A stretch of 64,000 bases of DNA from Tribonema minus. Lineage: Eukaryota > Sar > Xanthophyceae > Tribonematales > Tribonemataceae. The notes under the pieces are model-generated. The model worked only from the letters and a program-made list of their open reading frames with translations. It was not told where the DNA came from and searched no databases. Location of the stretch: positions 1,178,001 through 1,242,000 of the forward strand of contig JAFCMP010000525.1 of NCBI GenBank assembly GCA_017506865.1, in the 5' to 3' direction. Below, piece after piece: positions 16,701 to 60,500 of the stretch; position 1 is the stretch's first letter, and each line of letters begins with the position of its first letter. The position numbers and the translations under genes were made by a program.

Positions 16701-19700
16701 ACAGCACGGGGCACTAGAACTTGCCAGAACACGCAAGAACGTGCCAGAACTTGCAAGGGAAACCTAGGAAACTTCTGCAGAATACAATGACCCTTCTACA
16801 TATTCCAACACCCTCCCCCAGTCAACGCTCCATGCCCTCATGAGCTTGACTGGATAAAACTGCACACTGCCACAGAGCCTGGTTCGTTACCTCTGCGCTA
16901 TTGCAATTACCCTAAAATCCCCCGAGCAATGCTGCCGAATGAAACATGTGCTGCTCAGTGCTCAGCGACTTGGTCAGCACATCTGCATGCTGCGCCTGCG
17001 TGCGCACTGCTTCTACAGCACTCTTCCCCCTGGCAACCTGCTCGCGCACATAATGAAACTTAACATCTATGTGCTTGGTGCGCTGCGATGCACCCTCATC
17101 TGCTGCCAACCTGATAGCAGCAGTGTTGTCCTCAAGGATCCGCACTACCCCGTGCGCCTCCCCCAAGAACCCCAGGAGCCGTACCATAGATGGCACCTCC
17201 TTGCTCGCCGCGCACAGCGCCACGTACTCCGCCTCCGCCGTAGAAAGCGTAACGCATGGTTGAAGCTTGGAGCTCCACGCCACCGCCGCGCCGCCAAGCA
17301 GAAACGCATACCCGGTGTGACTGCGCCGCGTCTCGCGGTCGCTCGCGAAAGATGCGTCGGCGTATCCGAGCAGCTGCAGCTCCGCACCCTCCCGCCTCTG
17401 GAATGTGAGGCCCGCCGGATGGCCTTTGAGGTACCGCAGCACTCGCTTGGCTGCCTCCAACAGGCACGCCCGTGGCGCCACCAGATGCCGCCGCAGCTGA
17501 GACACCGTGTAACTGATGTCCGGCCGCGTGCATGCGGTGACCCACCCCAGCTCCCCTACCAGACCCTGGTACTCCCGAATCCGAGCACCGTCCAGCAGCG
17601 GCGAATCCTCCACCGAAATGGCTGCCCTTGCTGCTGGTGTCTGCATGTGATGAGCTTCCTGCAGGCCGTCCTTGGCCAGCAAGCTGTTCACGTAGTCGGT
17701 CTGCGACATGGTGATGTCGCCGTCGCCGCTGCGCGTGAACGTGATCCCCAGGAACTTGGTTGGAAAGCCGAGGTCCTTGAGGTCATAGTCCGCCCCTATG
17801 TCGTCGACTGCCGCCTGCAGCACGCCCTTGTCGCTGCTGCCCGTCATGAACACGTCGTCCACGTGCAGCAGTATGATGGCGCCTGACTGATAGTTGCGCA
17901 GCACGCACGGGTCAGCAGGGCACTGCTTGTAACCGCGCTGCTTGAGGGCGATGATGAGCTTCTGATGCCAAAGCCGTGGGCTCTGGTGCAGCCCGTAGAG
18001 GCTCTTGCGAAGCCTCATGACGAGTGGCTGGCCATCCTTGCCGCGCTTGACGAACCCCTGCGGCTGTTGCACGAAGGTGGGCTCGTCGATGTCCGCTTGG
18101 ACAAAGGCGTTGTCGAAGTCGCATGCGTGAAGCTCCCAGTTGTAGTGCGCCGCTAGCGCCACCAGTACCCGAAGCGATCTGATCTCGGCAGTGGGTGAAT
18201 GCACCGCATCGAAATCTACGCCGGGTCGCTGCTGATCGCCGCGAACAACCATGCGCGCCTTGCGCCTCGCCACCTCGCCATGCTCCCCGAACTTGGTCTT
18301 AAGCACCCAAGTGGTGCCCAGCACCTTAGCTCCCTGCTCCACCTCGCTCTGCTCCACCAGCTCCCACGTCCCCCGGCCATTGAGCTGGTCGTACTCCTTG
18401 CTGCAGGCTGCGCGCCACTCACTGCTGTGAGCCCCCTCTACCGCCTCGTGGTAAGACTTAGGATCCTGTGCGCAAACAGCCGCTGCTGCAAGCAAAGCAA
18501 CGAAGTGGGCTCGTGAGTACCCACGCCCGCTGCGTGTGCGTAAGGGCCGTGTTGCTGCATCTGCTGTCGAGTCAGCATCCGTAGCATCTCCCTCCCCAGC
18601 TGCTGGCCCCTGGCCTGCTGCTGCATCGCCGCTAGCCTCGCCAGCAGCCTCGCCAACAGCACCGCCCTCCCCAGCAACTTCCTCGGGCCTCTGCCCGAGC
18701 TCCTGTTCGGGCCCCTCCTCGGGCCCCGCCGCCGGCTCCTCCGCATCAGGACCCTCGCGGAACGTCACGTGGAACGCCGTGACCACCTGGCGCGTGCGCT
18801 CGTTGTACACGAGGTAACCACCCTTGGTGTCCTCCGAGTACCCCACCAGCCGCCCGCGCCACGCCTTGTTGGTGAACTTGCCGGGCTCCCCCTCTGCGCA
18901 TATGTACGCGAAAGAGCCGAACACCTTGAGCTTGGACAGGTCCGAGACCTGTCCCGCCCACGCCTCGAACGGGGTCTTCCCGCCGAGCGCAGAGTGAGGG
19001 CTCCTGTTGCCAAGGTAAGCGGCATGGCGGAGAGCAAAATGCCACAGTGACCCAGGCAGAGCTAGCTGCCTGCAGCATCTCGCACCGCGCCTTGTTGTGC
19101 AGCGTGCGCAGCGCACGCTCCGCGATGCCGTTGGACTCGTGCGTGTACGGCGCCGACTAGCTGATGTCGTAGCCGGCTGAGACGCTGTGCTCCTTGAATG
19201 ACGCCGCCCTGAACTCCTTGGGCCCGTCCAAGTGCACCTCAAACAGGTGACGCTCCTTGGGCGCCAGCACCTCGCCTCGCAGCCGCTCGACGTCCTCCGC
19301 CATGTCTGCCTTTGACCTGCGACAGTACACAACATGGTAACGCGTGTGCTCGTCGACGAACACCCTGGAGTACCAGCTGCCGTCGTGGCCGTGCTCCTCG
19401 TACGGCCCGGCCGTATCGCTGTGCCACACCTGTCCGGCGGCAGTTGCGCCCTGAGCGGCGCGAGGGGGGTGCGACTGGTGTGTAGCCTTGCCCAAGTGGC
19501 AGGTCTCGCACGGTGGCAACTCCCCGTCGGGCAGCTCTAGTCCTGAGCCCTCCATGCCCGCCAAACGCCGCATGTCCGCCAAGTTGAGGTGTCCGAGCCG
19601 CTGATGCCAGCGCTCCAGCGACACCGAGGCTGCAAACGCCTCTGGGCGACTACCTCCGGCTCGCAGCGCTCCTTCGCTGCAACCCCTGACCCGAAACTTG

Positions 19701-22700
19701 TAAAGGCCGTTCTCCTGCCGCAGTGGCACTGCTACCCTGGGGCCGCCTGGCACTGCTGGCGGCAGCACCAGGGACATGGCTCCTGGCGTGAGCACGAGCT
19801 CGCCCCCTGCCGCAACCAGCTTTGACGCGCTCAGCAGCAGCGCCTGGCCTGAGTGCGGCACAATGAGCGACTCCCAGAGGTCCAGCTTGACCTCCGCTCC
19901 GTTGCCTGCAATGCGCACGTGCAAATCGCCAATACCTGACGCGTACGCACCCTCGCCAGGGTGCGCAGTTGCGAGCGCCACGCGCTCCTGCCGAACTGAC
20001 GACATGAATGCGGATACATCGCACCTAGGCCAAAGCGCCGGGTCGATGACGTGCCTGTTGGCGCCGCTGTCCACCAGGATCTCAACGTAGCTACGAGCTG
20101 AGGTCCCTCCGGCTGCTACCAGCGCAGTAGCATCTCCCTCCGGCTCACCAGCTGCCTCCATGTAGCAGCCATGAGCTGGGCCGTCAGCGGGTGCGTCGGA
20201 GTCGCCTGACCCCTGCTTGCCTCCCCGCTTCTCCTTGCGCTTGTTGCGCAGCTCCGCGACAGAGCCTGCTGCAGGCTTCTTGCCGGCCTTCTTGGCGGCA
20301 CAATCGCGTTCCCAGTGGCCTGACTTTCTGCAATAGTTGCAGGTACCCCGTTTGCCACTGCCGTGAGCCGAAGCAGCACCCGCATCTACTGCGTAGGCTG
20401 ATGGGCCCTTGCCGTTCTTGCGCGCCGCTCGCTCACTGTCGTACTCCGCCTGCAGCCGCCTCTCAGCCTCGTCCAGATCCGCTGAAACCATGCAGCGAAT
20501 CGTCCGGGCTACAACTCGGTATCCCTCCGCATCAGGCAGTCCTTGCAGTAGCCTTGACAGCAAATTGCCGTCCGCCACCGCCTCCCCCTGACTTGCGAGT
20601 CTACCGCGCAGATAGCGCGCTTTCGCGAAGTACTCCATGGGCGACATATCGCCCATCTCCAGCCCTCCCAGCTCATCGTGCAACGCCATGCGTGACGCGA
20701 TAGTATTGGGCTGATAGCGCTCCCTGAGCGCCCGAAAGGACTTCCTTCCCTGCCGAACGTTGCTTGGATGAAGTAGCACGTAGCCGATGTCGGTCGCCTT
20801 GGTGGAGATGACCGTGACCAGCGCCTGGTACACCTTCAGGTCGAGAAGGTCGTACACTGTAGTTGCGCTGTCATGCAGTCCCTGGTCGTACCGCTCGTCC
20901 CAGTCCACCATCGGCGGTGGCACTCCCTCGAGACAAAGTGCCGACTCGAACGCCATGGCGAACATCGCCCACTCCTCCTCCTTGCCGCTGAACTGCTGCA
21001 CTCTGAGCTTAAGCTTAAGGCTCATAACCGTTGATTTCTTGACACCGTGCAGAGTGCCAGCCAGCGGAAGCAATATGTCCTCCTCACCTTCGTGTTGCAC
21101 ATCATCTTGACCAGGCATGATTGCAGAGCACCAGAGGCAGAAGAGAGTTCCAACTTGTGTGGATGCAAAGGAAGTCAGGTATTCACAGGATGCACAAGAC
21201 ACAAGGTGGTGGAATTGCTTCCCTACAGCACGGGGCACTAGAACTTGCCAGAACACGCAAGAACGTGCCAGAACTTGCAAGGGAAACCTAGGAAACTTCT
21301 GCAGAATACAATGACCCTTCTACATATTCCAACAGCTGGCGGCGGCGGCTGCTGCATAGGCGGCTGCTGCTGCAGTGACATTAGCGAGGGTGGCAGTTAC
21401 TGTAGATGATTTTGTCACCTTTTGCTGCAAGTGGGGATGCGGCAGCTATGGCGATCGTCCGCATGCGGGGCAGGCGCGCCACCTCTACTGCTGCTGCGCC
21501 CTGTGGCATTGCTGGTGTGGAACGCGCAGCGCCTGCATTAACGGCCGCCGCAGTGCTGCTGCGTGCGCTGGAGCAGCTGCGCCGCCTGCCGTGCTGCTGC
21601 TGGTGTTGCTGCTGCCGCAGGTGCTGCTGCAGCACCTGCCACATTGGCCGCTGCCACCGCCGTTGCCGCTGTTGCCGCCAGCACGGCTGCAGCGCCGCTT
21701 GCTGCCGCTGCTCCTGTTGCAGGTGATGCAGCTGCTGCCCAAGGGCCTGGAGCTGCTGCAGTGTTGCCTATGCCCATAGCAGCTGCTGTTGATGCTGCTG
21801 CAGCTAGTGATGCCGCGGAGGCAGCCTCAGGTGCAACACGTGCTGCCGCTGCTGCTGCCTCTGATGCTGGAGCAGCTGCTACTGCCGCCGTTGCTGCTGC
21901 GGCAGCCGCCGGAGTAGTTACGCCGTGTGCTGCTGCTGCTGCTATCGCTGGTGCCGCCTGTGCTGCCGCCGGGGGCACTGGTCCAGCGGCAGCTGCGCCG
22001 TGTGTCGCCGGAGTGGCTGCGTCATCAGCGGCCAGCACTGATTCAGAAACGGCTGTGCCGCCTAGCACTGGTAGTTATGAAACGTTAGCTACCGCTGGGC
22101 GGCAGCGCGGCCTGCCGCTGATGCAGTTGCCGCTGCCGGAGCGGTCGCGCCTCCACTGGCATCCGCCACTGCCGCTGTAACAGTTGCCGCTGCTGGTGCT
22201 GCTGGTGCTACTGCTGCCGCTGCAGCCGGCCCCGCTTGTGTTGCCGCATCCTCAGCAGCGTCGTCTGCGAGTTGAGGAGTCGCCTGCTGCAGCACCCCCG
22301 CCCATCCAGAGAGTGCTGGTCGCAGCGCTTGCAACGTGCCCACCACATACGCAGCATCAATATTCAGAGGTGTCGCAGGCGCTGGTAGTGCCAAGGCCGC
22401 CATGCCGTATTTGGAGCTGCGCTTGTTGAAGGCTGGGCTGTTCGCTGCCAGATGGACGTGGGCAGCTCTTGTGTGCTACTTCAACAGTCCCGCAAAGAGT
22501 TTCCAACTTTCAAAGAGAGTGAAAAAAGCGTGTTCCGGGCCGATTTTTTGTGTCGCAAACATTTCGACTGGCCGACTTTCCGCGGTGATATCTCGTGAAG
22601 TCCTGCATAAACGGAGGATGACGTGTGAATGCGCAAGGCAGAACTACTCTTCAGCTACAATTTCATATAGTAGTCCAGCGGACGACGGACACGCCGAAAC

Positions 22701-31700: not shown

Positions 31701-34700
31701 TTGGATGTGGCGCTGCTGCCGATGCGGTGGTCTGCTGTGTGCATCGTGTAGGGATCCTGTGGCTAAGGTTGCATCGCGGTGTAGTTGAGCACACGGACTT
31801 TCTAGCCGCAAGAGTGCATGGGTATCCTCAGCAGTGCTCATCGCAGCTTGGAGGGCAGGGGTCATGAGCGGTGCGCATGCGCAGCGCGCATGCGGCAGCA
31901 GGATCTGCCCGCGAGCTGCAACTGTGGCAGGGGGAAGCACGTAGCTCAAAACTGGAGTGATAGTTATTCTGATGCAACGCTCAGTAGAGTCCACGGGCTA
32001 CCAGTGCCACAGTATCAGAGAGCTATAGACGTTGATGACGCGCCCTATCGCGCAGCAGTTGAAGAGCGGTGTCGCCGTGAAAGATGGAGTAGCTACGGAA
32101 ACAGCAATGTTGAATTGCCAGCAGCGCTCCGCCTCGTTGCTGAACCGTGGCCCACCAGGAGGCAGCAGATCCATTCTACTTGCTCTGCAGTGCTCTTCAG
32201 CTTGTGGAGAACGGACGCAGACCTGCTCGTGCACATGCAACAGCTGCAGACGCTGCGTAGGCTGCATGTAAGCGGCACGGGAGCACTGATGGGCTTGGTG
32301 GACATCATGCCAGCGACGGCCGCCACTGCTGTGGGCTACTCCCTGCTGTGGCGCCGCTCCCCCTCAACCACGCACGTTCGGCGCGAGCACATGCGCCGCG
32401 CGTTTGACAATCAGCGCTGACGCAAATTATTATGAATGCACACAGCGGAGAAGAGAACCCCTTTTGGCAGACCCAGCAGCCGGTACAAGATTGAGCGCTG
32501 GTACATGATGGCTCAACGTGCAACACAGTTCAAAGTTGCAAGGGAGCACTGCATTGACATTGATGTCTTTCCTTCACGAAAACGGCCGGTAGTAACCATA
32601 TTGGGCACTGCGTATCGCTGTTGCTGCTGCAACAGCCGGTGTCGACAGCGTCCGAGATGGCTGCGGCTGCAGCGGCTGCGGCGGCGGCGGCGATCGCGGC
32701 GGAAGTGGCGGTGGACGCAGCCGCGGAGCGACTGCGCACCATGCCGCCGCCGCCGCAACGCGAGACCTCGGCAGCGGTCATGGCGACGGACATGGCGGCA
32801 GAGGCAGCGGCGAAGCAACTGCGCGCGCTGCCGACGCTGCAACGCGAAACCTCCACCAGCGACGCTGGCGGCGATGAGCGCGGCGGCGATGTCAGCATTG
32901 CCAGCAGCGTCTCGCGTGACGTTGGCACTGCTGCTGCTGAGCATCACCAGCAGCAGGGCTCGGCGGCGCGGCTATCGGCCCCAGCAGCAGCAGCAGCAGC
33001 AGCAGCAGCATCGGCCATTGCGGCAGCAGACAAACCCACAATTCCGCTGCTGCGCTCGTATGATGGCGGCGCTCGCGAGGGCAGCAGCGGCGGCACTGAT
33101 GCCGATGGCGGCACCACTGCTGGAGGCAGCGGCAGCAAAGCACCAACTACTGCAGCCAGCGATGCCGCCGCAGCACCGGTAGCGGGGCCCACTCAACGCG
33201 TCGCAGACCGCACCGTTGCGGGCGGCGGTGGCAGTGGCGGCAGCGGCGGCGACGCCAGCGGCAGCGGCGGCGGCAGCGGTATTGGAAGCAGCGGCGGCAG
33301 CAGTGGCGGCGGCAGCGGCATTGGAAGCGGCAGCGGCGGCAGCGGTGGCAGCAGCAGCAGCATTGGAAGCGGCAGCGGCGGCAGCGGTGGCAGCGGCAGC
33401 AGCATTGGCGGCCGCAGCAGCAGCGGCGGTGGCACACTTGGCAGCACTGGTGTGCCCGTTCCCAGCCGGGTGCCAGCTGCGCCGATGATAGCTCCTGTGT
33501 CAGTGCCGCAAGCAAGAGTGACGGTAAGCTGCTGGCAGTGTGTGACAACTGGTGAAAATAGAGCATGGATTGAAGCAAATATAAGGCCACCCTAGGTTGC
33601 AGTACTAGTGCGAATCAGGTCAAACTTGTTTATGCAACGGGATTTCACCATGTGCAGGTGTTGGAGCAGTGTAAGCGAGGCGTCCTCAATACATGCACGC
33701 ACTCCATACGCACAGGCATGTTGCAGAAACGCCATTGAATGAAAACGTCATATTGCACCACTGTCTCCAGCGGCAGACGCTGCGGTCTCTTTAATGCATG
33801 TCATGTGTAGGACCATGAGGAAATGCGTTTGGAGACAAAATGGTGTGGGAAAATTACATGATAAATTTTTGCAATCAGTCAAATTGCATTATGAGCCGTT
33901 ATAGTAATCTTGCATTTTTTTGCGGTGAAAAATGTGTCAGAGAACATGAGAGATACCGCAAAATGAATGGTAAATGCATCATAAATGCATCTTCATCTTG
34001 CCAGAATGCAGTTGAAAAAAATAAACCACATCTCTTAACTTCATTTGCTGACCTATCGAGACGTGGCCCCAACACATGCGCGTGCTTGCTGCCGACACGA
34101 CACTTTGTGCAACAGGCCTCTGAGGGCCTCGGCAGTGATTTCGACTCATCTCCAAGTGCAGTTGAAGTCAATCTCATGCTCGATCTGACGAGCAGACTCG
34201 ACTGCTGCTGCGCACGCTGCACGTCGCGCACCAGAACTGCACCCCAGCAGCAGAAGGTCCAGCACGCGCGCGCCAGTACCTCACACACACACCCCCCTAC
34301 CCCCCCCCCAAACCCTAATCCTCGCCTTGAATTCGCAGAGCAAAGCCACGCAGCGCCCCGCGCCGAGCCCCTGCAGCGGCCCCCCCGCGACCCCCGAGGA
34401 GGCGTCCGCGACCTGCCGCCCGGGGCCGCCTTGGCACTTCGAGCTCACGGACGTCGGCAGCGGGAGGCGCGTGCCCGTGACGCTGGCGGGGCACGTCACC
34501 GGCATGGCGGCGCGCCTGCTGCCCAAGCTGCCGGCGCAGTGGCGCGTCAAGGGGCTCATGTCCGACGATCACGTGAGGCGACGGCGGCGCCGCGCTCGCG
34601 CAAACTAGAAGTTTCTGCATAATTTTTAAGCTATTAAAAGTAGTAGACTTTTTTGACAGCATTAGTACAAAAAACTGAAAGAATTGAAGATGAACAGGCC

Positions 34701-37700
34701 TGCGCCAGCGGCGCGCCTGCTGCCCAAGCTGCCGGCGCAGTGGCGCGTCGAGGGGCTCATGTCGGACGATCACGTGAGGCGACGGCGCCGCGCTCGGTTT
34801 TGCGCGCAGCCGGCTTCGACGCAGCGTCATGTTTGCCGCAAACTTTGTGGAATCTGAAGTAGTGGTCGTGATGGGATGGTGCGTTGATGTATAGTACGGC
34901 GTGTAGCGAGCGGCGCATGCACCGCGTGCACCATGCACCGAGCGCTGTTGATTGGCATTTGAATCGTGGATGGAGTTGACCGGGGCCTTTGCCATGCTTG
35001 AGAATCATTGAGATGGTTTTTCCCAGGCCGGTCCGCACTTGCTGCCAGCGCTCGTGAATTCATGTTTCAGCACATGTCGCCTACAGCATGGACCACAAAC
35101 ACATGTTCACCATTCCGCAGCGAGAGAGAATGAGCGTGCAGGCTGGGGGCGCTTCGAGAGTTACTGCCGGCTTCATTGCTGAAGATGAACCCTCCCGTTG
35201 CTGACCGCTGCTGCGCAGCTGACCAAGCACCTGAACCAGCTGCTAGCGGTGGAGAACCGCAAGCACGTGCGCCTCACGCTGCAGCCCAGGGGCGGGCCGA
35301 TCAACCTCGCCAACCAGCGCGCTGTTCAGGTACGCCTCAGACTTGGACTCGGCCCCTACGACTTGAATCTCGGCCCGCTCCTCTGAGTGTGAAGGTACAT
35401 TGGGGTGATGATCGTCAGCATTCGTGCAGCACGAAGCGCCCCTCCAGAGAGCCGCCAGTTGTGAGTTTGTTCACGCGTTAACTGTGGCGCTGCGCATGTC
35501 CTTTGACGTGAGTGCTGGGCTTTGTGCCCCTCTCCTCCGCTTTGCCTGCTTCAAGGCACAACCTGCTGTGCGTGGTTCATAGAGGTTATAAACGGAACAG
35601 CATCGAAACGGAGAATGGAATAATATTTCCGTTTAACGTAGGACACGGCTACCTCTGAAGGTCCACTAGCATACTCATATGACATGGTCACAATATCACG
35701 TTCTGAAACCAAAATTTACAAACTGAAAAACGAAACGGAGAATTTCAGGACAAACCGTGTTTGAACCTTTTGAAACGGACCGAAACACGGAATGCGAAAC
35801 ATGGAACACAGTTTCGTGTTTGAGCGGGTCTAGCCGCATTTGCCAAGTTGTTTACGTCTCGTCATGCTGTCTGGCCACATGTAGCCTACATGTTGCATCT
35901 GCTGAGGTCACTCTTGAAGATGGAGCAACCTCATCATCGCCACTGCGAACTGCGGGCACGCCGGGACTAGCTGGGGCTGCACTCAGAGAAGGTGGCTTGC
36001 CGGAGTCCCTGTTTGCATGGCAGTTACAAATACGGCTCTGCAACACAGCTGATTGCCGCTGTAATACCTTCTGGTACTTCCATTCCATGGCGATTACAAA
36101 TGCGGCTCTGCACACCACAGCTGATTTGCCGCTGCAATACCTTCTGGTACTTCAACTGCAGGACCTCAACACGGCGTTCGGCAAGGCCAAGGGCGGCAGA
36201 GTCGGCTACATGCCCTTTGGCGACGAGCGGGAGCACTGGTAAGAGCGACACTGCAATTGCGCGGCGCTTCAGTTGAGCGCTGCCATGCGTCCAGATGACA
36301 AGCTTAGCCAATATTGGTGCCCGCCATCAAATCTGTTTGTACTGTACGCGCCCGTGCTCGTAACCAGCCCCATGTGGTCCTGAAACGTTGTTAAATCAGT
36401 TTACCTCTAACTTTCGATGGTGATTCTGAGACCAATGGTCCAATTAATTTTGCTTTTGCCACCAATGATCTACCAGTGGGCCAACAAAAATAAGAAATGC
36501 TTCCAATTTTTTTAGATACCCCACACGAAACTTTTTGTTGGTTCTTGGATAGGATAAAGGGTTAGCATTTGCTGTATTTACATACTATTTGCGACTATTT
36601 TCTTCTTTTTTATTTTTTTGCAACTGGATATTTCGAAAATCTTGATCCTTGCACACTTCGAATACGTTCTGGTGCTACCCCCCCTAAAAATGGCTTGCAG
36701 TGTAGTGACAATTTCACAAAGGTTTATAAATCTCAAGAATCAACCCAAGAGTTTGCTATATATGAAAACGAATCAAAAGATCGTATGATGTTTGTTGGTT
36801 TTGATCTGCAGGATTAGCCAAGAGAATTAATTCACTATTATTGAAACTATCAATTTTAGTTGAACTGGGTATATATTAAAAATAATGATCATGTGAGTTG
36901 ATCTAAATATGGCCTGAGTGTAGTGAAAATTTCAAGAATTTGCTGTATTTCGAAAAGATTCTTGAAATTCTGAATCTGAACACGTAAACTTTGAAATTAC
37001 ATTTTGAAATACGATTTGATTGTCGTTTTTTCCAAGACGAAGGCTGGCTGCAGTGCAGTGACACTATTTTGATGAGTTCAGAGGCACTCAGAGGGTATGT
37101 GACCGGGGGGGCGGGGGGGGGGGGGGGGAGGCATGCGCTTTTTGGCACAACAGCGCGCACTCACAGACAGCTGGCTCTGACCCTAACTTCAACTCTAACT
37201 CATTTCGCTACGGGCTGCGCTGACAAAGCCTCCTTCACTCAGCAAGCTAGAGCAACAAAAAGAAGCGAGAAAAAACATCGGATCTGGAATCTACTCAGCA
37301 GTAGACTAGAAGAAGTCACAGCGTTTGTTGCAGTTGACGACAGCCGTGGCCGAGTCTTGCGCTGTCCGCCTTATTGGGGCTTTAAGGCCGCAGCGCTGAG
37401 CTGCACATGAACTGCAAGTGCAGCAGCATGCATCACTGCCGCAGCGCCCAAAAGCGCGCCCCGAGACGTAGATCGGAGGACAAGCGGCCAACGCAGGCAT
37501 TTCGTGTAGCATCTGCGGAAGCTGCGCGCAATTCACAGTCACTACATCAGCACAAACAGCGCGAACAGCTTGAAAGGGTTTGCTCATGAAGTTGAAGTGC
37601 GCGTATTGCCATGCCCAGATTAAGGGGAGGCTGCGCACGCATGCATGTGTCATGGGCATCACTCGCCACGGAAGTGAAACTGCCTTCATCAACAGCAGTC

Positions 37701-39453
37701 ACGGGTGCTTCCTTACTGTAACTCCTGCGCGATAAGGACAGTGCAGCAGTGTTGCAACAGCAAGCACACCTGAAGCGAGTGCATTAATATGCAGTCCACG
37801 CCCTGCTGCTTGCAAAGTTGTCAAAATTGCTGTAGCGATTTCCATCAGCCAATTTACTCAATGTTTCCGTGTGTGTGGCTCTTGAGGCGATTTGAGGATG
37901 CATCATTCAAGTCATTCTTGAATGCCGTATGTACCCTCTCAAGCACACCTGAAGCAAGTGCATTATCATGAACTCCACGCCTCGCTGCTTGCCAACTTGT
38001 CAACATTGCTGCAGCAATCCCGTCAGCCGATGGACTTGATGATTCTGTGCATGACATTTCAGGTGATTTGACATTTCAGGTGATTTGAGGATGCATCATT
38101 TTTAGAAAAAAGTCATTCACGAATGCCACATGTACCCTCGCGTTCTCACGTCACCACAACCCTCCATGGCCATTGCAGGATGCAAGCGCTCGTGATTCCG
38201 CCGGCCAAGGCGGACTTGGTCAAACTGGTCCTGCACTGGGAGAAGGACTTTACCGCGTCCATGCAGGAGCTGACGGTGGTAAGTGCGCCCTCTGCGGCAA
38301 CAGTGCTCAGCACAGGCAGGGCAGTGCTCCACGCATGCTTAAGCAGCAGTGCTCAGCGCAATGCAGGACAGTGCTCAGTACGTGGCACAGCGGTGCTCAG
38401 CGCAGGCTGCAGCAGCAGCGCTCAGCACATGGCATGGCAGTGCTCAGCGCAGGCCACAGCAGCAGCGCTCAGTACATGGCATGGCAGTGCCCGGTGTATA
38501 GACATAGCAGCAGGTGCTCCTCAGCGCGTGTCGGGACAGTGCTCGGTGCGTCTCGCAGCAGCGCTGAGCATGGCACGGCACAGTGCTCAGCGCAGGCCGC
38601 AGCAGCGCTCATCATTACGGGACAGTGCTTAGCGAAGGCCGCAGCCAGGTGACAGGCACCGATCGGGCTGAGGTCAACGGGAGGCGCCGCATTTGTGCGC
38701 AAGAGTCGATGGTGTGTCAGTCATAATTGCGACATCATGGCGCGTGCAGTTCTGAGTGGGCATCATGCACGTCATTCACAATTCATTGCGGGGCCGCTGC
38801 TCTGCGTTTGCCTCATCTGCCGCTGTTCCCGATGCTGCCATAGGAGTAGTGTCGATGCTCTTGTTTAAGCACAAAAACCTTTAAACTCCGACCTTCATTC
38901 ATTAAACCTCTTCAAGAAGTTTTGGAAAATTGCAGTCATAATTTGTGATTTGAATTTTGTTCTAAAGCAGCATCTACAATAAGTTGATCATCCGATTGGT
39001 GGAGGACAACATGAATGAACTGATTATTGGTAGCTTGACAGGCTTTTTTCAAACCATATTTGCGGTGGTTCTGTGCAATTGGACCAAGAATTCTAGTGCC
39101 TCTGCGGTGTTTGTAATAGAAGTATCTCTTCGATCACAAAACCTTGAGTTTTTTTTTATTGTAAAAAAGCTCTTTGTTCTTGACTTGCTTCTTTATCTTG
39201 ACGTTTTCTAGACTTCGAGTGATTTTCGAAAGCTCTTATTCTCGATTATCCGTTTTGTGATCATTGGATGAAGTTGGCCAAAAAAACCTCAACTAAAATT
39301 TCTTTGTGTTAGAACAAAAATGATGACATGTGCGCTCATTCAATGCTGGCAGGGAACTTCATGTTGTTTTGACTTCAGCTGGTCATGGGGTAGAGTGCCC
39401 TCCGCTCTCCCCAGCAGCTCTCGATGAAACATCTCAATGTTGGTGTAAACTTA

Positions 39454-47649: not shown

Positions 47650-48937
47650 CGGTGCCCGCTCTCTTTGCCATACGGTAAGGTCGCGTCGTTGTCGCACCGT
47701 CCCCGGGGCACCGTTGTGAACGCAGCCACTTTAGCATGTCCAAGTCTCTGTGACGGCCTGAGGTAGAGCCCCCCTCACATCCCTTGCATGCACGGGGCAC
47801 CCGCTGGCATGCGCCCAGTTAAGTGCATCAACGTGTCCTGCAAATGCGGCGGCCTCGCACGTCCATGCATCCCTCTGGCAGCCGCTGCCACGCGCCCACT
47901 GCAGCGCATGCATGCAGGTCGCCCTTCCTTGCAAGCTCGCTACATGTGTCCGTCACACGGGCACCCGTTTGCGTGGGCCCACTGCAGCACTTCGATGTGC
48001 CCCTGCAACGCAGCAGAACTGCAGGCGGTCTCGTCCCTGGGACACCCGTGGGCGCGCGCCCACTGCAGCACCGCAAGGTGCCCCCCTGCGGCCGCGGACG
48101 AGCACACGCCCTTGTCCCATGGGCAGCCTTTTGCGCGCGCCCACTGCAGCACCTCCAGGTGTCCGCCTGCGGCCGCTGATGAGCATACGTTCTCGTTCCA
48201 GGGAAAGCTGTTTCCGCGCGCCCACTGCAGGACATGGAGGTGTCCACCAGCTGCCGCCTCTGAACACACCGCCGCGCTGCGGCAGAGGCAGCCGTTGGCG
48301 CGCGCCCACTGCAGCACCTCGAGATGCCCGGCCGATGCGGCAGCATTGAACGTGTCCCAGCTCCAACTGCAGCCAATCTCGCGCAGCCACTGCAACACCT
48401 CAAGGTGTCCGCCGGCCGCAGCGGCCCTGCACGTCTCCTTGCTTGTGGGAACGCCATTGCGTTGCAGCCACTGCAGCAGCCGCAGATGGCCCCTCGTGGC
48501 AGCCATGTTGACGTAGGCTTGCTGCAGTGGCTTGAAGCGCGTGTTACGGAGGCGCAGCATGCCTTGGAGGTCGCCTCTGCGAGCGCACGAACCCTGCGCC
48601 AAAGCCGCGTTCAAGCCGTTCCACAACGCCCACATTATGAGGCCACTGCTGCCTACGGCATCTGCTGCCACCGTCTGGTGCTTCGCGGGGCTTAGAACTG
48701 TTCGATGACATCTCTGAAAGCGGTGCAGGTGCTTCTCATCATCAAGGACGGAGGGAGGAAAGCCAGGACGTACGACGCAACAGTCAGGACCGGGTGGTCA
48801 GCGGCATTCTCGGTGGATGTGGATGTGTTTGAACTCGAGAGTTCACTCTCTGCTGTTGCCATGACTTCTCTTTTCTTGATTGGTCGGGGGCGCCGGACTG
48901 GCTGCATCCATCGGTGACGACGACGGTGAAAAAACAT
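47650..48937 (-). pseudogene. F-box / ankyrin-repeat gene, frame-broken
   Basis: From high to low coordinates: an F-box-like start (MATAESELSS from 48862, then LTVASYVLAFLPPSLMMRST and FRDVIEQF). In another frame (47940-48671) there are seven units of about 27 residues of the type AAAGGHLEVLQWARANGCPW. Two more frames (47731-47934 and 47690-47750) hold three further units (LQWARGSGCQRDAWTCEAAA, HVDALNWAHASGC, LDMLKWLRSQRC). That makes about ten repeats across four frames, with changes near 48700, 47940 and 47740. Such proteins are F-box substrate adaptors or ankyrin scaffolds in large algal families. Small introns could mimic some breaks, but none with good splice sites was seen at the repeat-to-repeat junctions. 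Its start lies about 180-260 bases from the lipin start, head to head. Confidence 0.7.
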
Positions 48938-50334: not shown

Positions 50335-53300
50335 GTGAGAGCGCGGCGCTGCTCGGCGCCGCTCGTGCAGCAGCGCTGAGACCGAATGGAAGAGTGAGGC
50401 CGCGCGCTCGCGTTGATTTACGCGTCGTTCAAAGCTGATGCGCACTTGACAGAGCGGCTGCGGCGACGTGCAGTTTTGTTGCTCGCCGCTGCACACTGTA
50501 GTGGTTTTTGCAGCGGCATATGGTGCTGTTCTCTGAGAGAGCAGGCTCGGGGCTGTTGTCAAACGTCCGTTGCCTGGTGATAGCGGGTGTCGCTGCCGTT
50601 CTTGTGATGTGCGGGCTGCTATTCAGCAGCCTGCGCAGCCGCATCCCATGCGTATCAACACGAAGATCAGCGTGTCGCAGGCGACGCGATGCGCGGCACC
50701 TGCCGACTTGCTCTGCTGCTGCTGGCGGGTTGAGGTCCGCACGATTGCTGGCGCTGTGCAACGCGCGCGGCGGCACACCCGACGCCGGCCAAGTTGCGGT
50801 CTCGACACACGCACCGCATGTGCATTAGCAGCTGCGCCCGGCTCACTGACCACCCCCCCCACACAGCAATTTGCACATCATTTGTAGCCCTTTGTTTAAA
50901 AAACTTGTGCGCGTGTGAGGCGCAGGCGCGTTGCTGAGCGTGGCAACGCAAGAGTGAGCATCGCTCAGTACGAGCCCGCCACCGTGCGGTGCCATTGTCC
51001 AGACTCGTGTCGCACAGCAACGAGCGTCTTACGTGCTTTCACGCGCGCAAGCAACCGCGTCCCTATGCTGGGGCGCGCATCCCGTGTGCAGGTGTCAGCA
51101 GGGTCCCTGACTGGCCATCAGCAACATGCAGTGCCGGGAGTCCGGCTTTCAGCTGCAACTCAGCACGAGGCGCTGCGCTCCGCGACTGTCTCTACGATGC
51201 GGCGGCGCGCGTGCGAACTAGCCTGAGGAGTCACGCGTGCAGCCGTCCCTCCGCTCATGGAACATCCACCGCAACCCAGTGTACAGGCGGCGTAACCTAT
51301 GTTTGTTTGGACGCAATCTGAGTCGCATTAAACCTGATGGTGATGCCATGTGTCCTCGGGGCGCACCGTTCCGTTTCACGCGGCCTGCATTTTACATGGA
51401 TCTGATGCAGCGCTGCCTCCCCTCCCCCCCCCCACCCCCACACACCCCCGCGTGCAGAGCGCCACCGGCTCTATCGCGGCAGTGGCAGGCACTGCGACGG
51501 CGGCGGCGGCGGCCGTGGCGCTGTCCGAGCTGGCGGCAGCGCACAGCGGCGACGCCCCCCTCCCGAGGGCGGCGCTTCACGCGCCGCCGTCGCCGCTGCT
51601 GGGCGGCGCGGCGCCGCCCGCGGGGGCGCCGCCGCCGCCGCTCGCGGGCGGAGCGCTGACGCCCATCGCCGACACCATGTTCTACATGGTGGGCAGCCCG
51701 GAGTACACGGACGACGAGGGCGACGAGAGCGGCTTCTGCGACGGCTACGACGACGACGACGACGACGCGTACGAGGACTGCGAGGAGGGCGGCGTCGCAG
51801 GTGCGTGCGCGCGCTCTGCGCGTGGGGCGTCCTCTGTCTGTGTCGTGTGGTGTAGGAAGGTGATGCGTTGCCGCACCGCGGCGGCGGCGGCGGCGCAAGT
51901 GGGGACGGCGAAGCGGGCTGCGCCGCGGCGGCACGTGCATGCCGCGGCTCCGGCAGTTGTCAACGCCCTCCGTGCAGCAGCAGCGCGCACCTGTACACTT
52001 CCAGGCATTGAGAAAAATTCCATTATCTCTCTCCGCTGTGCGCTGATCAGCTGACACGTCCCGCTACGCAGGCGGCGGCGGGGTGAACCCCGAGGTGGCT
52101 GCGGCGATGGCGGCGGCAGCGGCGGCGGCGGCCGCGGCTTCCGCAGCGGCGGCCGCGGCGGATGGCGCCGCGGCGGCGGCAGACGCGCTCGCCGCCGGCG
52201 CGCCGCCGCCGGTGTTTGTGCCTGCGGCCCTGTCGAGCCCGCGCACAGCCGACGCGGAGACCTTCTACAAGGTGCGTCGCAGTTGAACTTGCGGCCATGA
52301 GGGTCTTGGCGGTGTTGAGCAGCGCTTGAAGTTGAAGTCACGCGCGATGGGGAGCGCTGCGGCAACGATCTGCGTTGCGTTGCCCCCGCGGTCCTTGGCG
52401 CTGGCTGGTGTTGCGGTGCTGGGCGGCGGGGCGCGCGTGGGGGGGGGGCGGCGCTGCGCCGAGGTCAGAAATGCGATGACAGCTACGCGGACTGTGTTGT
52501 CGTGACCTCATGGTGCTGGGCACATGCGCGCATCTGCAAATATGCACACTTTCTCTGCGCAAGACGTGCTTTGAGTCGGGCACAGGATCGACCTGGCACG
52601 GCTTTCACCTCGGCGTGTTGAAGTGCGGCAGGGGGCGCGTCCAACCCTACACGCGTGCACCGTGACACCCGTGCCCTCTTTTTACGGCACGACTCCTGCA
52701 CTTCAAATCTTGTCCAAAAACACACAACGTGAGTTAAGGTAGGCGACAATGATGTGGGCGTTGCCGCGTGCGTGCGTCCGCTTGCTGCTGCGTTCACGTA
52801 GCTGTGACGTCCGACAGCGGATGTCTTGCCCTCTCGCGTCACCGCAGAGGAGGCCACATTGCACGTCCGGCAGCCCCGACTGGAGAGTGCACACGTGTAC
52901 TTTGAGAAGAGGCACAGCCCCTCCTGTCACGGCGTCTTCCAGGCAGCGCGCCTTTTGCGTGTGTTTTCAAGATGCGCATGGTGGTGTGTGCCTTCTGTTG
53001 CTGATGCCGTATGTACATGCCCCATGCAGGTCGGCGCGGCCAACGACGTCATCATGGTGCGCTCCGTCAAGGACAACAAGCTGTGCTTCAGCGACTGGCA
53101 CATGTCTTTTGACAGGCAAGTGCGCCTGCGATTGAAGTTTCCACACACCCCGCAGTGATACATGGCTGGTTTCGCGAGCTTTATGTGCATGCAGCGGTGC
53201 AGTACATACCAGCTGCGGAGCTCATTGGCGGCCGTCGCAGCAGCCGTGTGTGACCGCCGCGGACGCTGTCGCCTTTAATGAGAGCAGCGAAAGCTCAGTC

Positions 53301-56300
53301 CGCAGAGCCACTCTCGCAACCGCGCTCTACCGATACTTAATGCCTGCACACCTCGAAGCCACTCATACAGGCGCCAGCACCGCCTTCGGTGACACCCGCC
53401 GTTGTAATGCGCTGCATAGCCGCATTGCCGAACCTGGCAGCCCAATGCGGGGCGCTGGCGGCGGCTGGTGACGGCCGACGTGTGTAGCTGCTCACAACAG
53501 CCCCCCCATCCATCAATGCCACAGAAAGCAACCCTCAGCACTCGCGTGCGGTAGCGCTTACACTGCTCCGAAAATGCGCGGCGCGCCGCTGGAAGACCAA
53601 GGCGGGGCGCGGGCGGCGCCTCGTGACGGCCAACATGTGTAAAAGTTCACAACTGCCCGCGATCAATTAATACCACACACCTCAAACTAACAATCAGTGC
53701 TCGCCTGCGGCAGCGCTCACAACGCTCGGGCAATGCGCGGCGCGCCGCAGGAAGACCAAGGCGGGGCGCGGCCGGCGCCTTGTGACAGCCAACATGTATA
53801 AAACTTTCCAACTTCCCGCGCTCAATCAATACCACATACTTTCAAATCACCCTCAGTACCCTCATGCGGCACTGCTCGGGCGCTGCGCTGCGCTGCAGGA
53901 AGACCAAAGCGGGGCGCGGGCGGCGCCTCGTGACGGCCACTGCATGTAGAAGCTCACAACTGCCCCCGATCAATCACTACCACAGAAAGTCACTACTACA
54001 GAAAGTAACCCTCAGTACTCGCGTGCCGTAGCGCTTACACTGCTCCGCAAATGCTTTGCGCGCTGCAGGAAGACCAAGGCGGGGCGCGGGCGGCGCCTTG
54101 TGACGGCCAATGCCGTCGCGCACGTCTTCCTCAACGGGCAGCTGCTGCCGCGCCTGTACATGCGCATCCGCGAGGACGGCGCGTGCGTCTTCCCCGACGG
54201 CACGCTGCAGCCGCCCGCGTGCGCGACGTTCGATATGAACGCGCTGCCCGGCGTCAACACGCTGCGCTTCGAGGTGAGGGGGTGTTGTTGTTGTCGCAAG
54301 AGGAGCGCGCCGGTAGAAGAGATTTGAATGTAGACTTTGAGGTGTCGCGGAGCACGGTGTCGCGATGGCCTTTGAATGGTGCGCTGCAGCCGCCCGCGTG
54401 CGCGACGCTCGACATGAACGCGCTGCCCGCGTCAACACATTGCGCTTCGCGGTGAGGGGGTGCCGTTGCGGCGACAGGAACATACGGATAGGAGGAAAAC
54501 ATATTTAAAAGTGACTTTGAGGTGTCACGGAATATGGCGCGTGCGTCTTCCCCGACGGCACGCTGCAGCCGCCCGCGTGCGCGACGTTAAACATGAACGT
54601 GCTGTCCGGCGTCAATACACTGCGCTTTGAGGTGAGGGGGGCGTTGTTGCTGTAGCAGAGGGAGAGAGGGTGTTGTCGAGTGGGGCCAGGAGACGAGAAT
54701 TGAATGCGAACTGTGAAGTGTCACGGAGCGCGGCGTTGAACGGCCGTTTGATGTGTGTGCTGCAGCCGCCCGCGTACGTGACACCCAATGTGTACGCGCT
54801 GCCCAGTGTGCAAACGCTACGGTAAGAAGAGACGTAGACGTAGCTGTTGGCGTCGGTGGTGTAGGTAGCGAGTGCAGCAACGTGTTGACAAAGGAAGGGG
54901 GGGGGGGGGGGTCGCTGATGGCACAACGGTGCAGTTTGTTTTTGCAGAGCTGTAGGCGGGGCGTGACAGCAGCCCTTGTGCTCGCCGGTCAACCAGACAT
55001 GCGCTGCACGGCGCTGATACACCGCAGCTCCATTTGAAAGACACCGCCGCAACGAGCGAAGCGGTGACGGACAGGGAAAGGGCTGTTGCCGCTGGTGGTG
55101 GAGAGATAAAGTCCCACTGAGACGTGCCGCAGGGGTTTGCGCATGTTGTGAGACGGCGCGCTGCACCAGCCCGTGTGAGCGATAGATTCACTACAGGACG
55201 GGCAGAGGGAGTGGCCTCAGTCCCTGACACGTCGATGAATCATGTTAGGATGTGGTTGGGCGTCGCCCTGCCACCGCATCGGCACGCATTCTGCAAACAT
55301 GCATGAACACGCCCGCTCACAAAAAATTGCCGAGGCTCTTTGCGCGGCCCATGAGGCCCCGCCCTCGCAAGCGACACCACAGGGGCGCGCCGCCGCCGCC
55401 GCTGCTGCTGCTGCCACGCGTTCGCGCACGGTACCACGATGTGCGTCCTCTGACTGGTGCCGCCCGTGCTGAGCACTGCTGCGCCGCAGGTGCGGTTCCG
55501 CGGCGACCCGCGCGTGCTGGTCGCGGAGTGCTTCGCGTTCGCCTTCGACGCGCGCGACCGCCTGCTCGTCATGGACATCGACGGCACCATCACCAAGAGC
55601 GACGTGCAGGGGCTCATCATGACCTTCAGGTGAGCCACAGCACCGCGCTGCATGCCGCACGCAGCAGCTCCACGGCACTTGTGCGTTAACTGGACGAGCG
55701 CAGTAGGAGCTCTTGTGTGTTTGGGGGTAACACACCCACTTCGTCATGGCGAGAGGCACGGGCCGGCTGATCACCAGCTTCAGGTGACCGTAGAGAGCGC
55801 GCTCACTACGGCCAGCAAGGCCTTGTTACACCCATCCGATGCGCGTCAGTGCGCTCTGCAGCACCCTCACGCTCGTTGTCCTTGGGCCCCCGTGGTCATG
55901 GTACAGCCGTGCTGACGTACCAGTGGCGGAGAGCCCAGAATCGATGCATGCAGGGCAATGAACAGCAACTCGGTGTGGTTGTTGGGTGTGCAGCAGCGCT
56001 CAGTGAACAGGTGCTGCGGCGCGAGCGGAGCCGGTGTGCACCGACAGACACGTGATAATACTTGAATTGTTGAGCTGTGCGAGTCCGGTCACCGCGGGTG
56101 ATATGCAGGTGCTCACCGTGGACTGCGGGCAAGCACTGAGCGATGTATTGATGTCCTCGGCAACCTCACCAGACCCGCTGATTCCAGTGTGCGCATCCCC
56201 TTTGAACTGATATGTGCCTGATCTCGCAGGGTCCGTGTCTTATGAGCGGGCATCCTGCGTTTCCCTGGCGCCACCCTTTAGTCTGCATACCTCCCGTACT

Positions 56301-57475
56301 TTTTCTTTGTTGCCGCTGCGCGGCATCTGCACCCTCGCCTCAATCATCTCTTCCCTGCCCGTGCTGATAGTTGTCGTGAGGTGCGCCATCACCAGCTTTG
56401 TAGGGTCCCGCTTTTGCAGCACAATCGCGCCTTGAATGCTGAGTTGGCATGAGCCCGCAGCGCGCTCTTTCACACCCGCTGTTGCGCCACGCTGGTGCAG
56501 CTGTTGTCTCTGTGCGAATTCACTCAGCTCATCCAGTCATCCGCCTGTATTCAAATGCCTTCACATTATAATAATCACGACAGGCAATGAATGCAAGTGG
56601 ATGTCTTTCCAAGTACCTCAACGTTTGTGGCCATGCCGCCGCCGTGCGCAGCCGCCGCACGGCGCACCACCTCCAGCCTGGCATCTGCCCAATGCCATGC
56701 ACACTTGACTTCTCATCATGAAAATGACTTGTTTGGAGCTTACTTCAAAAAGAGGTATGATGTACCACAGCGCGTAAAATGACCATGCTGTCAATGCATA
56801 TTAATGTCTGGCGTCACATCCATGCCTGGCGTCGCGCGCAGCCCCGGCATGACGGACCACCTCTAGCATGGCAATCGTCTCTGCTACGAACATTTGACTT
56901 CTCGTCATGGCTTGTTTGAAGCCTTCAAATCTGGAGTACTTGAAGAAGTATGCTGTGCCATGAAACGTACATTACCATGCAGACAAACGCATTTTCAAAT
57001 GCCTGGCGTCACATCCATGCCTGGCGTCGCGTGCAGCCCCAGCATGATGGACCACCTCCAGCCAGGCATCTGCTCTCTGCTACGCACACTGACTTCTCAT
57101 CATTGCAACGACTCCTTTCAAGCTTCTCATTACTGCCACAATGCATGGATGATCCTGATATCAATGCACATTCACGTCCGGCGTCGCGCGCAGCCCCGGC
57201 ATGACGGACCACCTCCAGCCGGGCATCTGCTCGCTGCTGCACCACATGTCCAACGAGGGCGCGCACATCCTGTACCTCACGTCGCGCCCCGTGGTCCTCG
57301 CCAAGCGCACGCGCGCGTTCCTCATGGACCTGCGCCAGGACGGCCTGCTGCTGCCGCTGGGGCCGCTGCTCACGTGCAAGTCCAAGGTGAGGAGCGCTGC
57401 CGCTGCCGCTGCCGCTGCCGCTGCCGCCGCTGCTGCCGCTGCCGCTACCGCTGCTGCCACTGCTGGTACTGCTGG

Positions 57476-57530
<55 letters not shown>

Positions 57531-60500
57531 GCTGCTGCTGCTGCTGCTGCACGAGCACCGAGCACTGTTGAGAATTTGTGCTCTGCTCTTGCGGGGCCCC
57601 CTCCCCCCCCCCCTGTGTGTTGCGCGCGCCGGCGCATCGGCTGCTGCCGAACTGCGCCAGCTGTTGACGGCCTCGGCTGACTGCAGAGGGCCGCTGCAGC
57701 GCATGCTGCTGACCGTGCTTGATGTGGATAGTTCGAGTTCTGATATGACGAAATCTGATAAATGATGGGGTACTTTCAATGGAATAGTTCAGTACGGTGT
57801 GGGCCACAAGGCACTGCCGCACACCTGCGCCGCTCGAAGCACTTGCACACGCTGCTCAGTCAGGCAGCGGCCGCAAGCCATATATGCTGTGCCGGTTCTA
57901 TGACATGATCTCATGGCGCTGGCCGCTTGGACACTCATTGAGCTCGTAAGCCATTGTATGCCGCAGCGTTCGCGGTGACATCGCTGCTGCAGGCACCCAT
58001 GCAGTGCCCGCCCCTAGTATATACATTCTGCGTGCATGCAGAGTGTGCAGTACCCCCGCAATGCACTCCGGGACGCGTGGCGGCGCTCGGGTTGGATCTG
58101 GGATTCGGGCTGTTCCTTGGGTCAGGATCGTGTGGTGTATTACACTGTGATGTATATGATCGTGCAGTTGGCGCTCAGGTGTTTCCGCTCTGCTGCTCTC
58201 TCTCTCTCCGCTGCAGCTGACGGACGTGGTGTATCGTGAGGTCATCGCCAAGGACATGCACGAGTTCAAGGGCTCTGCGCTGCAGGCGAGTCTCATAAGT
58301 GCTTGAAAGGCTTGAAGGCAGACTTATATGTGTCCAACTTAAAGTTGATGTGCTTGCGTCAAAGCGCGTTTTCGCAGCTTCAACGATAGCATACAGCCGG
58401 GCCGCTTTGGCAGGTTGTTTGTTGCATGGCGATGCATGTGGAATGAAGCTTCAAGCTGCGTCGGCAACTCCTGCAGCGTTTGGCACTGACTCTGTGACTG
58501 GAGTAGTACCGACCAGATCTGGAGTACGCCGTGCGCCATTATTTCCTCTGCAGCGATCCTCCGGGTTGAGTGCAGAAGTGTTGCGCCAGTTTGGTTGCCA
58601 TGATTTCTGAAAGTTCCAGTTGTAAACAAGCTGTGGAGACACACGCTCAGAGAACGCTCGTTCAGTCAGGCGCAAAAAGGGCTCGGGCAGCTGCTCGCAA
58701 GTACTCATGGCCCTCGTCGTCGCAGTTGCAGGTGCACTCAGCGCCAAAAATGTCACATCCGGGCTGCAGATGCTCCACGCCGTGAACTACCACGGCTCAT
58801 AGTGCAAAAACCCCCAACTGCCAACTTTTCACAAGGAAGGTTAACGGCGACCTTGAAGCGGTTCACTTGCAGTATGTGCGGCACACTCTACGAGCCCGGC
58901 GGTACAGGCCCACGCGTGTGAGGTCAGAGAGTTCTGGTATCCCCCAGAGCACTGAGTGCACAACAGAACGCGCTGGATCCCTGACAGAATGCAGTTACAG
59001 CCTGCGCGCGAGCTGCGGCGCTGCTCCGGCGCCTCCCACCCATCGCGTGACCTGCTGCTGCAGCAACGCTCAACACGCATGCGTGACTCTACTCCATTGC
59101 GCGCGCAGGAGGTGGCCGAGGTGTTCTTCAGGGCGGGCCGCCCGGAGGACGACCCAGTGTACGCTGCGGGCATTGGGAACCGCGAGACCGACGCCTTCGC
59201 GTACCAGGTGCGCTGTCCTAGGGTTAGGGTTAGGCTGAGAGTGGTGTTTCGAAGCGCCCGCCGCCTGAGCAAACCAAGTGGGACTCTCTCGTCTTGTTGA
59301 AATGTTTTCATGGGGGTCTGATGCCGCGTGCTCGCCAACGCTTGACGATGGCGTGTCGAGACTGCCCACCACCCGCATCAAAGCCTGAACATGTTTTGTG
59401 GAGTTCTGTTCACGGAGATCTACATGTGTTGTGTGCTTCGGCGATGACAAGATCGACGCTGCCATGTACCGGGCTGCAATGGACCGGGAGCGTCGCTGCT
59501 CAAACCCTAACCCTATGTACTGCAACATTCAAAATCGGCGGGGGGTAGCGTGGAGGTACAGACTCTAGCGGGGTTGAGAGGGGCTCAAGTGTGGTTTGTT
59601 GTAACCTCAGGGCCCAGCGTACCTCAGCTCAAAGCAAGAGTCGTATATGCAAGCAGGCGACCGGTTGTAATTTGAACTAACAGGTATAAGCGCAGTTCAC
59701 ATGCTATTTGACAATGCGCTTCGTCGCGGGCAACTATCTGGACATGGAGGCAAAGCACCGCTCCTGGCAATTTGCTGCCTCTAGCTGGAGAGTGCACAAC
59801 TTCAGTGCCAATGCTATGATACTCATGGCAGCATTCACTCGCACGCTTCAGCTTCAAGAGGTACTATCCAACCCGCACCGCGGTCCTCACCCTCGACACG
59901 CCCGTGCATTGGCGGTGATCACACCGGCGCCCCTCGCTGGCTGCCACTCCCTTGGATTGGCCTGCGCTTACCCTCGTCCTGAACGTAACCCTGATCCCTA
60001 CCTAAAGTGTATTGTCACTCACGTAAATGTTTTCTTGCACGGTTCCGCTGCGCCGTGCAGGCTGCGGGGGTGCCTGAGGACTTCATCTGCATCATAGACT
60101 CCTCCGCCAACATACAGATATGGTCGCCAGTCAATGGGCTCAGGAAGATGCAGGTGAGCTGATGCAGTCTACAAAACAGGAGCGATGGATTGAGCGTGAA
60201 TTTACAGTAAGTTATGAGACTTCATTCATTTTCCCCCCGCTCTGTTGGTTGTAGGAGTGTTACAAACGCGCGTATACACCGTTATCGTGTGAGTTTTGGC
60301 CCTTGGACATGCAGGTGAGCTCATGCAAATTCAGCCACGAAGTAGCAATACACGCATACACACTTGAGTTTACGTCAGACCGGCGTATGTGAGGCCACCT
60401 GCTGCGCCGCGTTGGCATCATCTGAGCACTGTTGGCATCATCTGAGCACTGCAGGCCCCGCGCCGTGTGCTGCACTGGCTGCGCGTCAAAACCATACATA

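Follow-up and report, generated by a model that had tools for sequence, protein, structure and literature searches.

Why should one exon of a Tribonema minus gene lie between two arrays of its own ends, its beginning repeated upstream and its end repeated downstream? The exon is the fifth of a gene in a 64,000-nucleotide stretch of DNA (hereafter the window; 59% GC) from a genome assembly of 158 Mb in 554 contigs. Profile searches place matches to LNS2 (PF08235) in two exons of this gene, identifying it as a lipin-type phosphatidate phosphatase: an exon near 57204-57401 exceeds the cut-off of 32.3 bits with 45 bits, and exon 6 falls just under it. Exon 4 has a weak match to Lipin_N (E 0.12, below the cut-off), and the Pfam profile search returned no match for exon 5 itself. 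The exons concerned are:

53030..53115, + strand: lipin exon 4 (VGAANDV...SFDR); sequence, with the in-frame join to exon 5 aligned with 6tzy
54069..54273, + strand: intact lipin exon 5, acceptor ctgcag before it and donor gtgagg after it; sequence and protein alignment
55490..55629, + strand: lipin exon 6, DIDGT motif of LNS2; PF08235 31.7 bits, E 1.3e-7

Exon 5 completes an R and then reads KTKAGRGRRLVTANAVAHVFLNG...NTLRFE. Joined in frame, exons 4, 5 and 6 are colinear with 6tzy, presumably a lipin, over residues 6-142 of 144 (E 2.3e-6) with the frame intact; the alignment supports the intact exon 5 as the used exon, and among the exon-5-like copies it is probably the only one spliced. The 6tzy entry is titled 'Nuclear elongation and deformation protein'. 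Intron 4, from 53116, has an apparent GC donor (AG followed by GCAAGT), and the intron after exon 6 holds, by eye, a single weak echo (~25 nt) of the exon 6 end and donor at 55767-55791.

Upstream of exon 5 lie four decayed copies that join the intron end to the first ~42 coding bases, spaced 148-170 nt apart, and downstream lie three decayed copies that join the last ~70-96 coding bases to the donor, spaced 178-190 nt apart. A second edge array is present in the same gene.

53434..53478, + strand: upstream copy A1, decayed acceptor region and exon-like part from 53437; 0.85 identical over 40 nt
53577..53633, + strand: upstream copy A2, intron end and 42 exon-like nt from 53592; 41/42 identical
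53736..53792, + strand: upstream copy A3, intron end with CAG and 42 exon-like nt from 53751; 40/42 identical
53884..53940, + strand: upstream copy A4, intron end with CAG and 42 exon-like nt from 53899; 39/42 identical
54380..54459, + strand: downstream copy 1, ~71 exon-like nt and donor GTGAGG at 54452; exon part 0.93 identical
54536..54640, + strand: downstream copy 2, 96 exon-like nt and donor GTGAGG at 54632; exon part 0.92 identical
54759..54837, + strand: downstream copy 3, most decayed exon end and GTAAG at 54822; 0.78 identical over 70 nt
56631..57238, + strand: second edge array of the lipin gene, acceptor-side copies of the exon beginning at ~57191; self-BLAST and sequence

TRF places the upstream array at 53442-54110 (period 159, 4.2 copies) and the downstream array at 54178-54647 (period 179, 2.6 copies). 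In a self-BLAST of the window, the E-values (2e-87 upstream, 5.5e-47 and 1.9e-47 downstream, and 7e-9 for the most distant copy) put the lipin repeats far beyond chance. A first-pass annotation of this DNA had described three upstream copies with the first ~45 coding bases; the copies are real, the count is four and the shared exon part is 42 nt. It had also described three downstream copies carrying the last ~95 coding bases and the donor, for which ~71, 96 and 70 exon-like bases were measured, and had held that both halves meet at the intact exon alone. The repeat finder, TRF and self-BLAST found no whole-exon copy at the locus. A1 is the outermost and most decayed of the upstream copies and has lost its AG, and in A2 the AG is mutated to TG. 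Exon similarity stops at nearly the same position in all upstream copies, after 40-45 nt.

Expansion of one boundary by an assembly artefact was considered as well. The exon-derived parts of the lipin copies differ from exon 5 by 2-22% and their alignable intron parts by 15-23%, and comparable edge structures are found at other genes, on several contigs, which makes the artefact, a possibility already raised in the first-pass annotation, extremely improbable. With the intact exon as the query, four genomic matches were returned, three local and one to a paralogous exon on another contig; these counts are lower bounds, the short upstream copies being absent from the matches listed, and 'local' is thus non-exhaustive. 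Dispersal of the introner type would be seen as matches elsewhere, and this query, limited to the exon, matched only locally and at the paralogous exon (lower-bound counts).

Lipin is not alone in showing this pattern. For a second gene of the window, a copy at 34708-34791 lies 201 nt downstream of a sequence ending in GTGAGG and is 96% identical to it over 84 nt by self-BLAST:

34507..34791, + strand: apparent donor-edge duplication in another gene, exon end with GTGAGG at 34573; exon by eye

Recurrence was counted in 1.5-kb flanks of the best 30 of 132 kinesin matches and the best 30 of 56 CCT matches, a sample of 60 loci that are non-independent, several lying within the same genes, and that favours long exons because best matches were taken. 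An exon copy was present in the flank at 20 of the 60 loci and 40 had none; at L030 the sole flank copy was a 63% internal match, leaving edge copies at 19. Among the 62 flank copies, 33 are 3' parts of the exon lying downstream, 27 are 5' parts lying upstream and 2 are internal, a 'part' being defined as within 25 nt of the match end; whole exons, 3' parts lying upstream and 5' parts lying downstream are all absent. An additional match overlapped the exon, and the four opposite-strand matches in the flank search overlap the exon match itself. Copies are spaced at a median of 154 nt (interquartile range 113-180; 54 spacings in 16 arrays). The HMM tables alone reveal two successive partial matches preceding a CCT exon on contig C51 and a 3' part following one on C5. 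Light-harvesting exons gave 92 matches; compared over whole chains, they score best against multi-domain chains of 9vfj, probably from Euglena, and other chains ranking high include some named ACPI and CAC, names used for cryptophyte proteins. For a cryptophyte phycoerythrin family, a search run with no positive control returned no match.

The lipin paralogue on contig C15 has repeats bordering other exons, as judged by BLAST blocks. Its exon 5 (locus L005) carries a long open low-complexity insertion without flanking arrays, and neither BLAST blocks nor sequence revealed an array there. The ends of this exon looked split and intron gain was considered; the sequence is an open low-complexity insertion and not an intron with an array, and the candidate was rejected.

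On the minus strand of the window, 16506-21334 is an LTR retrotransposon, 'copia-like' by eye, with 305-nt end repeats 98.7% identical and long gag/pol-like reading frames, and 47782-48503 holds degenerate coding repeats of ~81 nt that resemble ankyrin repeats. Short telomere-like TTAGGG runs, apparently non-coding, occur at 59218-59233 and 59500-59515 and also at 1280-1330 of locus L032.

The orientation of the copies bears directly on their origin. If whole exons had been duplicated and one half of each lost later, as the first-pass annotation had considered, partial copies would be expected, and beyond their existence nothing speaks for this account. Against it, none of the 62 flank copies at the kinesin and CCT loci is whole, the wrong half is retained on neither side, and all lipin upstream copies end ~40-45 nt into the exon; it was rejected on the first of these grounds and has next to no likelihood. 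The half-and-half geometry follows from boundary-spanning tandem duplication beside an exon that stays intact, and a special mechanism is unnecessary. Very probably, exon 5 is flanked by two arrays of boundary-crossing tandem duplications that were serially extended and are decaying as intron, and the same process has acted at many sampled exons. Each array would start with head-to-tail duplication of a segment of ~150-180 nt crossing a boundary, the acceptor for the upstream array and the donor for the downstream one; further duplications would then lengthen each array, so that its history would be stepwise. Duplicating a segment that runs from intron into exon would place a partial exon ahead of the complete one, and a segment that runs from exon into intron would give the mirror image. 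Selection would retain only those duplications that leave one uninterrupted acceptor-exon-donor unit, and if the exon must stay whole, 5' halves accumulate upstream and 3' halves downstream. The copies would decay in the manner of introns, with the intact exon remaining conserved, and at many sampled exons of the genome the process would lengthen introns. This accords with the repeated duplication across each exon-intron boundary proposed in the first-pass annotation: both lipin arrays span junctions, and the pattern recurs in other genes.

Decay of the copies was assessed from 71 copies at 21 loci. Mismatches between exon and copy fall at codon positions 1, 2 and 3 in the numbers 113, 99 and 216, the synonymous fraction is 0.50 compared with 0.29 expected for random change, and of the 18 indels within exon-derived parts, 17 shift the frame. 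At eight sites the exon departs from a consensus of its copies (at least 75% of three or more in agreement), and seven of these sites are third positions. Together, these counts indicate that the exon evolved under coding constraint and that the copies are not translated. With the intact exon held at positions 1 and 2, a neutral model predicts a ratio of positions 1+2 to intron divergence of 0.5 between exon and copy, provided that the copies are strictly neutral and mutation rates equal, and of 0.5-1 between copies. Copy-copy divergence, where both sides could be aligned, is 9.4% at positions 1+2, 16.6% at position 3 and 17.3% in the intron part, a ratio of 0.54 (0.28-0.68) that falls within the neutral range, close to its lower limit. 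The exon-copy ratio is 0.25 (0.17-0.34), or 0.29 (0.19-0.41) in another computation, about twofold lower than predicted; the intron part could be aligned in 36 of 65 exon-copy and 38 of 77 copy-copy comparisons. For exon-copy pairs, gaps occur at a rate of 0.49 events per 100 aligned bases in exon parts and 3.95 in intron parts; for copy-copy pairs, the rates are 1.47 and 3.00.

A search from the intron side of 128 edges found 26 repeats that reach the junction, 15 with an exon part scoring at least 12 and 11 lacking one, and 44 further matches that stop short of it. The 15 repeats diverge by 14.4% in the intron and by 5.8, 4.2 and 12.9% at codon positions 1, 2 and 3 (codon figures excluding lipin), a ratio of 0.050/0.144 or ~0.35. 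Exon-derived halves are thus better preserved than the simplest neutral model allows, with about half the predicted difference. Constraint on the copies was considered as the reason for the better-kept exon parts; the codon-position and copy-copy comparisons assign most of the effect, not all, to the constrained intact exon. The residual could reflect faster mutation of the intron, bias in aligning or searching, weak constraint, or conversion of short tracts by the exon. As read from their sequence, the copies look mostly like neutral fossils and are probably without function.

The first-pass annotation had also suggested that the copies could supply decoy or alternative splice sites, an idea that little favours and that is not supported so far. 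If the copies were maintained to regulate splicing of lipin and other transcripts, the dinucleotide of the used site should persist, and it does in many (25 of 30 acceptor and 22 of 35 donor copies); the smaller than neutral divergence of the exon-derived halves points the same way. In ungapped copies, however, retention matches the neutral expectation (19 of 21 acceptors, 19.2 expected; 14 of 18 donors, 15.2 expected), and the dinucleotides are neither purged nor protected. The prevalence of frameshifting indels (17/18), the loss of AG from A1 and A2, and the lack of a detected array at exon 5 of the lipin paralogue further argue against maintenance, and a regulatory role appears quite improbable.

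Are exon edges preferred sites for these arrays? In nine CCT gene stretches with at least two known exons each (the single-exon stretches C51, C511 and C544 being excluded), 13 of 17 merged arrays touch an exon edge and 4 do not. When each array that covers an exon is divided at that exon and a pair of detached pieces is joined to the nearest edge array by position alone, the regrouped count is 17 of 19 at an edge. Of the nine stretches, two lack arrays altogether and one holds an intronic array only. Random placement would put 24-53% at an edge, depending on unit and intron length (binomial p 4e-9 to 1e-3). Three arrays of the window, at 36013-36160, 37761-38071 and 38297-38645, appear to lie wholly within introns, though the first of them stops at an apparent acceptor, and the kinesin loci perhaps also hold such arrays. 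Set against these purely intronic arrays and the 44 intron-flank matches short of a junction, the evidence for an exon-edge preference is suggestive only.

The same count bears on an addition to tandem duplication, not exclusive of it, by which the selected exon would overwrite or re-seed its copies through short-tract conversion or renewed slippage while the spacers drift. An exon-copy ratio below 0.5 and the regrouped edge count (17/19, compared with 24-53% for random placement) are in keeping with such exon-anchored renewal, as is a tendency for the nearest copies to be most similar to the exon (mean 0.916 for the nearest and 0.855 for the farthest; permutation p = 0.038, 16 arrays). This distance gradient, a weak effect, is expected if duplication continues beside the exon; the inner units at L032 look nearly uniform. 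Neutral decay is, however, consistent with the copy-copy ratio of 0.54, the three window arrays look purely intronic, and the intron-side search yielded both junction-reaching repeats without a scoring exon part (11/26) and the matches short of the junction, so that renewal by the exon is conceivable and on present evidence rather unlikely. A further reading, likewise rather unlikely, is that intron growth is seeded preferentially at exon edges and that these seeds are constantly renewed: a conserved edge would stay similar enough to its copies to permit fresh slippage or conversion of short tracts, introns would thus extend outward from exons, and the spliceosome would tolerate the many look-alike sites because it pairs the innermost acceptor and donor by exon definition.

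Tandem duplication across exon-intron boundaries has a precedent in amphioxus, where boundary-spanning minisatellites of the globin and Adh3 genes were termed 'mirages' (PMC3087553). Their units measure 10-160 bp (150-160 bp with 81-100% identity in BflGb6, 157 bp in BflGb9), either boundary may be affected, AG or GT is kept in many but not all units, and the exon is intact; RT-PCR suggests regular splicing, and haplotype evidence is also given (PMC3087553). The algal arrays have the structural features of mirages. They too consist of tandem units that straddle a splice junction and hold sequence from both of its sides; 5' and 3' boundaries are both affected, together at lipin exon 5 and elsewhere in 27 acceptor-side and 33 donor-side copies of 62. 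With periods of 159 and 179, the units are of minisatellite length, the longer ones exceeding the 10-160 bp reported. The frame and protein alignment of lipin exon 5 are intact, and this exon is presumably spliced regularly. The amphioxus cases come from an animal with few loci named (PMC3087553), whereas those described here come from an unrelated eukaryote with light-harvesting genes, were seen at roughly one in three exon loci of a small sample not drawn at random, and are known from the sequence of one assembly. The available part of a report on lancelet PGBD5, a single animal gene unlike the many loci here, describes 60- and 108-bp repeats over splice sites and mentions Adh and TnC mirages (PMC3902484).

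In another route, described in the accessible portions of two reports, tandem genomic duplication of an exonic segment bearing AGGT gives rise to an intron (PMC3443670; PMC4974935). As far as the first of these accounts goes, both processes yield extra splice-site-like sequence within a gene by tandem duplication, but there the duplicated segment comes from within an exon and its two AGGT copies bound the new intron, whereas here the segment crosses an existing boundary (PMC3443670). No new intron arising from the arrays was seen here, and the Rogers-type geometry, with 5' parts downstream and 3' parts upstream, was found in 0 of the 62 flank copies. BLAST blocks of the lipin paralogue start and end near the same exon borders, a comparison made at block level and not base by base. 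Internal tandem repeats in segmentally duplicated human genes, according to the section of that study at hand, lie mostly in coding exons, lengthening amino-acid repeats; repeats at exon-intron boundaries can likewise alter gene structure, and the location within coding exons sets most of the human repeats apart (PMC2812944). Our literature search found no algal report of boundary-spanning exon-edge repeats, which is not proof of absence. Mirage-type structure is already known from lancelets; its occurrence in an unrelated light-harvesting lineage is new.

In the literature found, mirages had been a curiosity of lancelets, and here edge copies accompany 19 of 60 sampled algal loci. Their presence in an unrelated alga suggests that mirages can be a general route of intron lengthening. 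The arrays also offer a natural experiment on splice-site choice, in which real junctions are duplicated with their exon context beside the site that is used.
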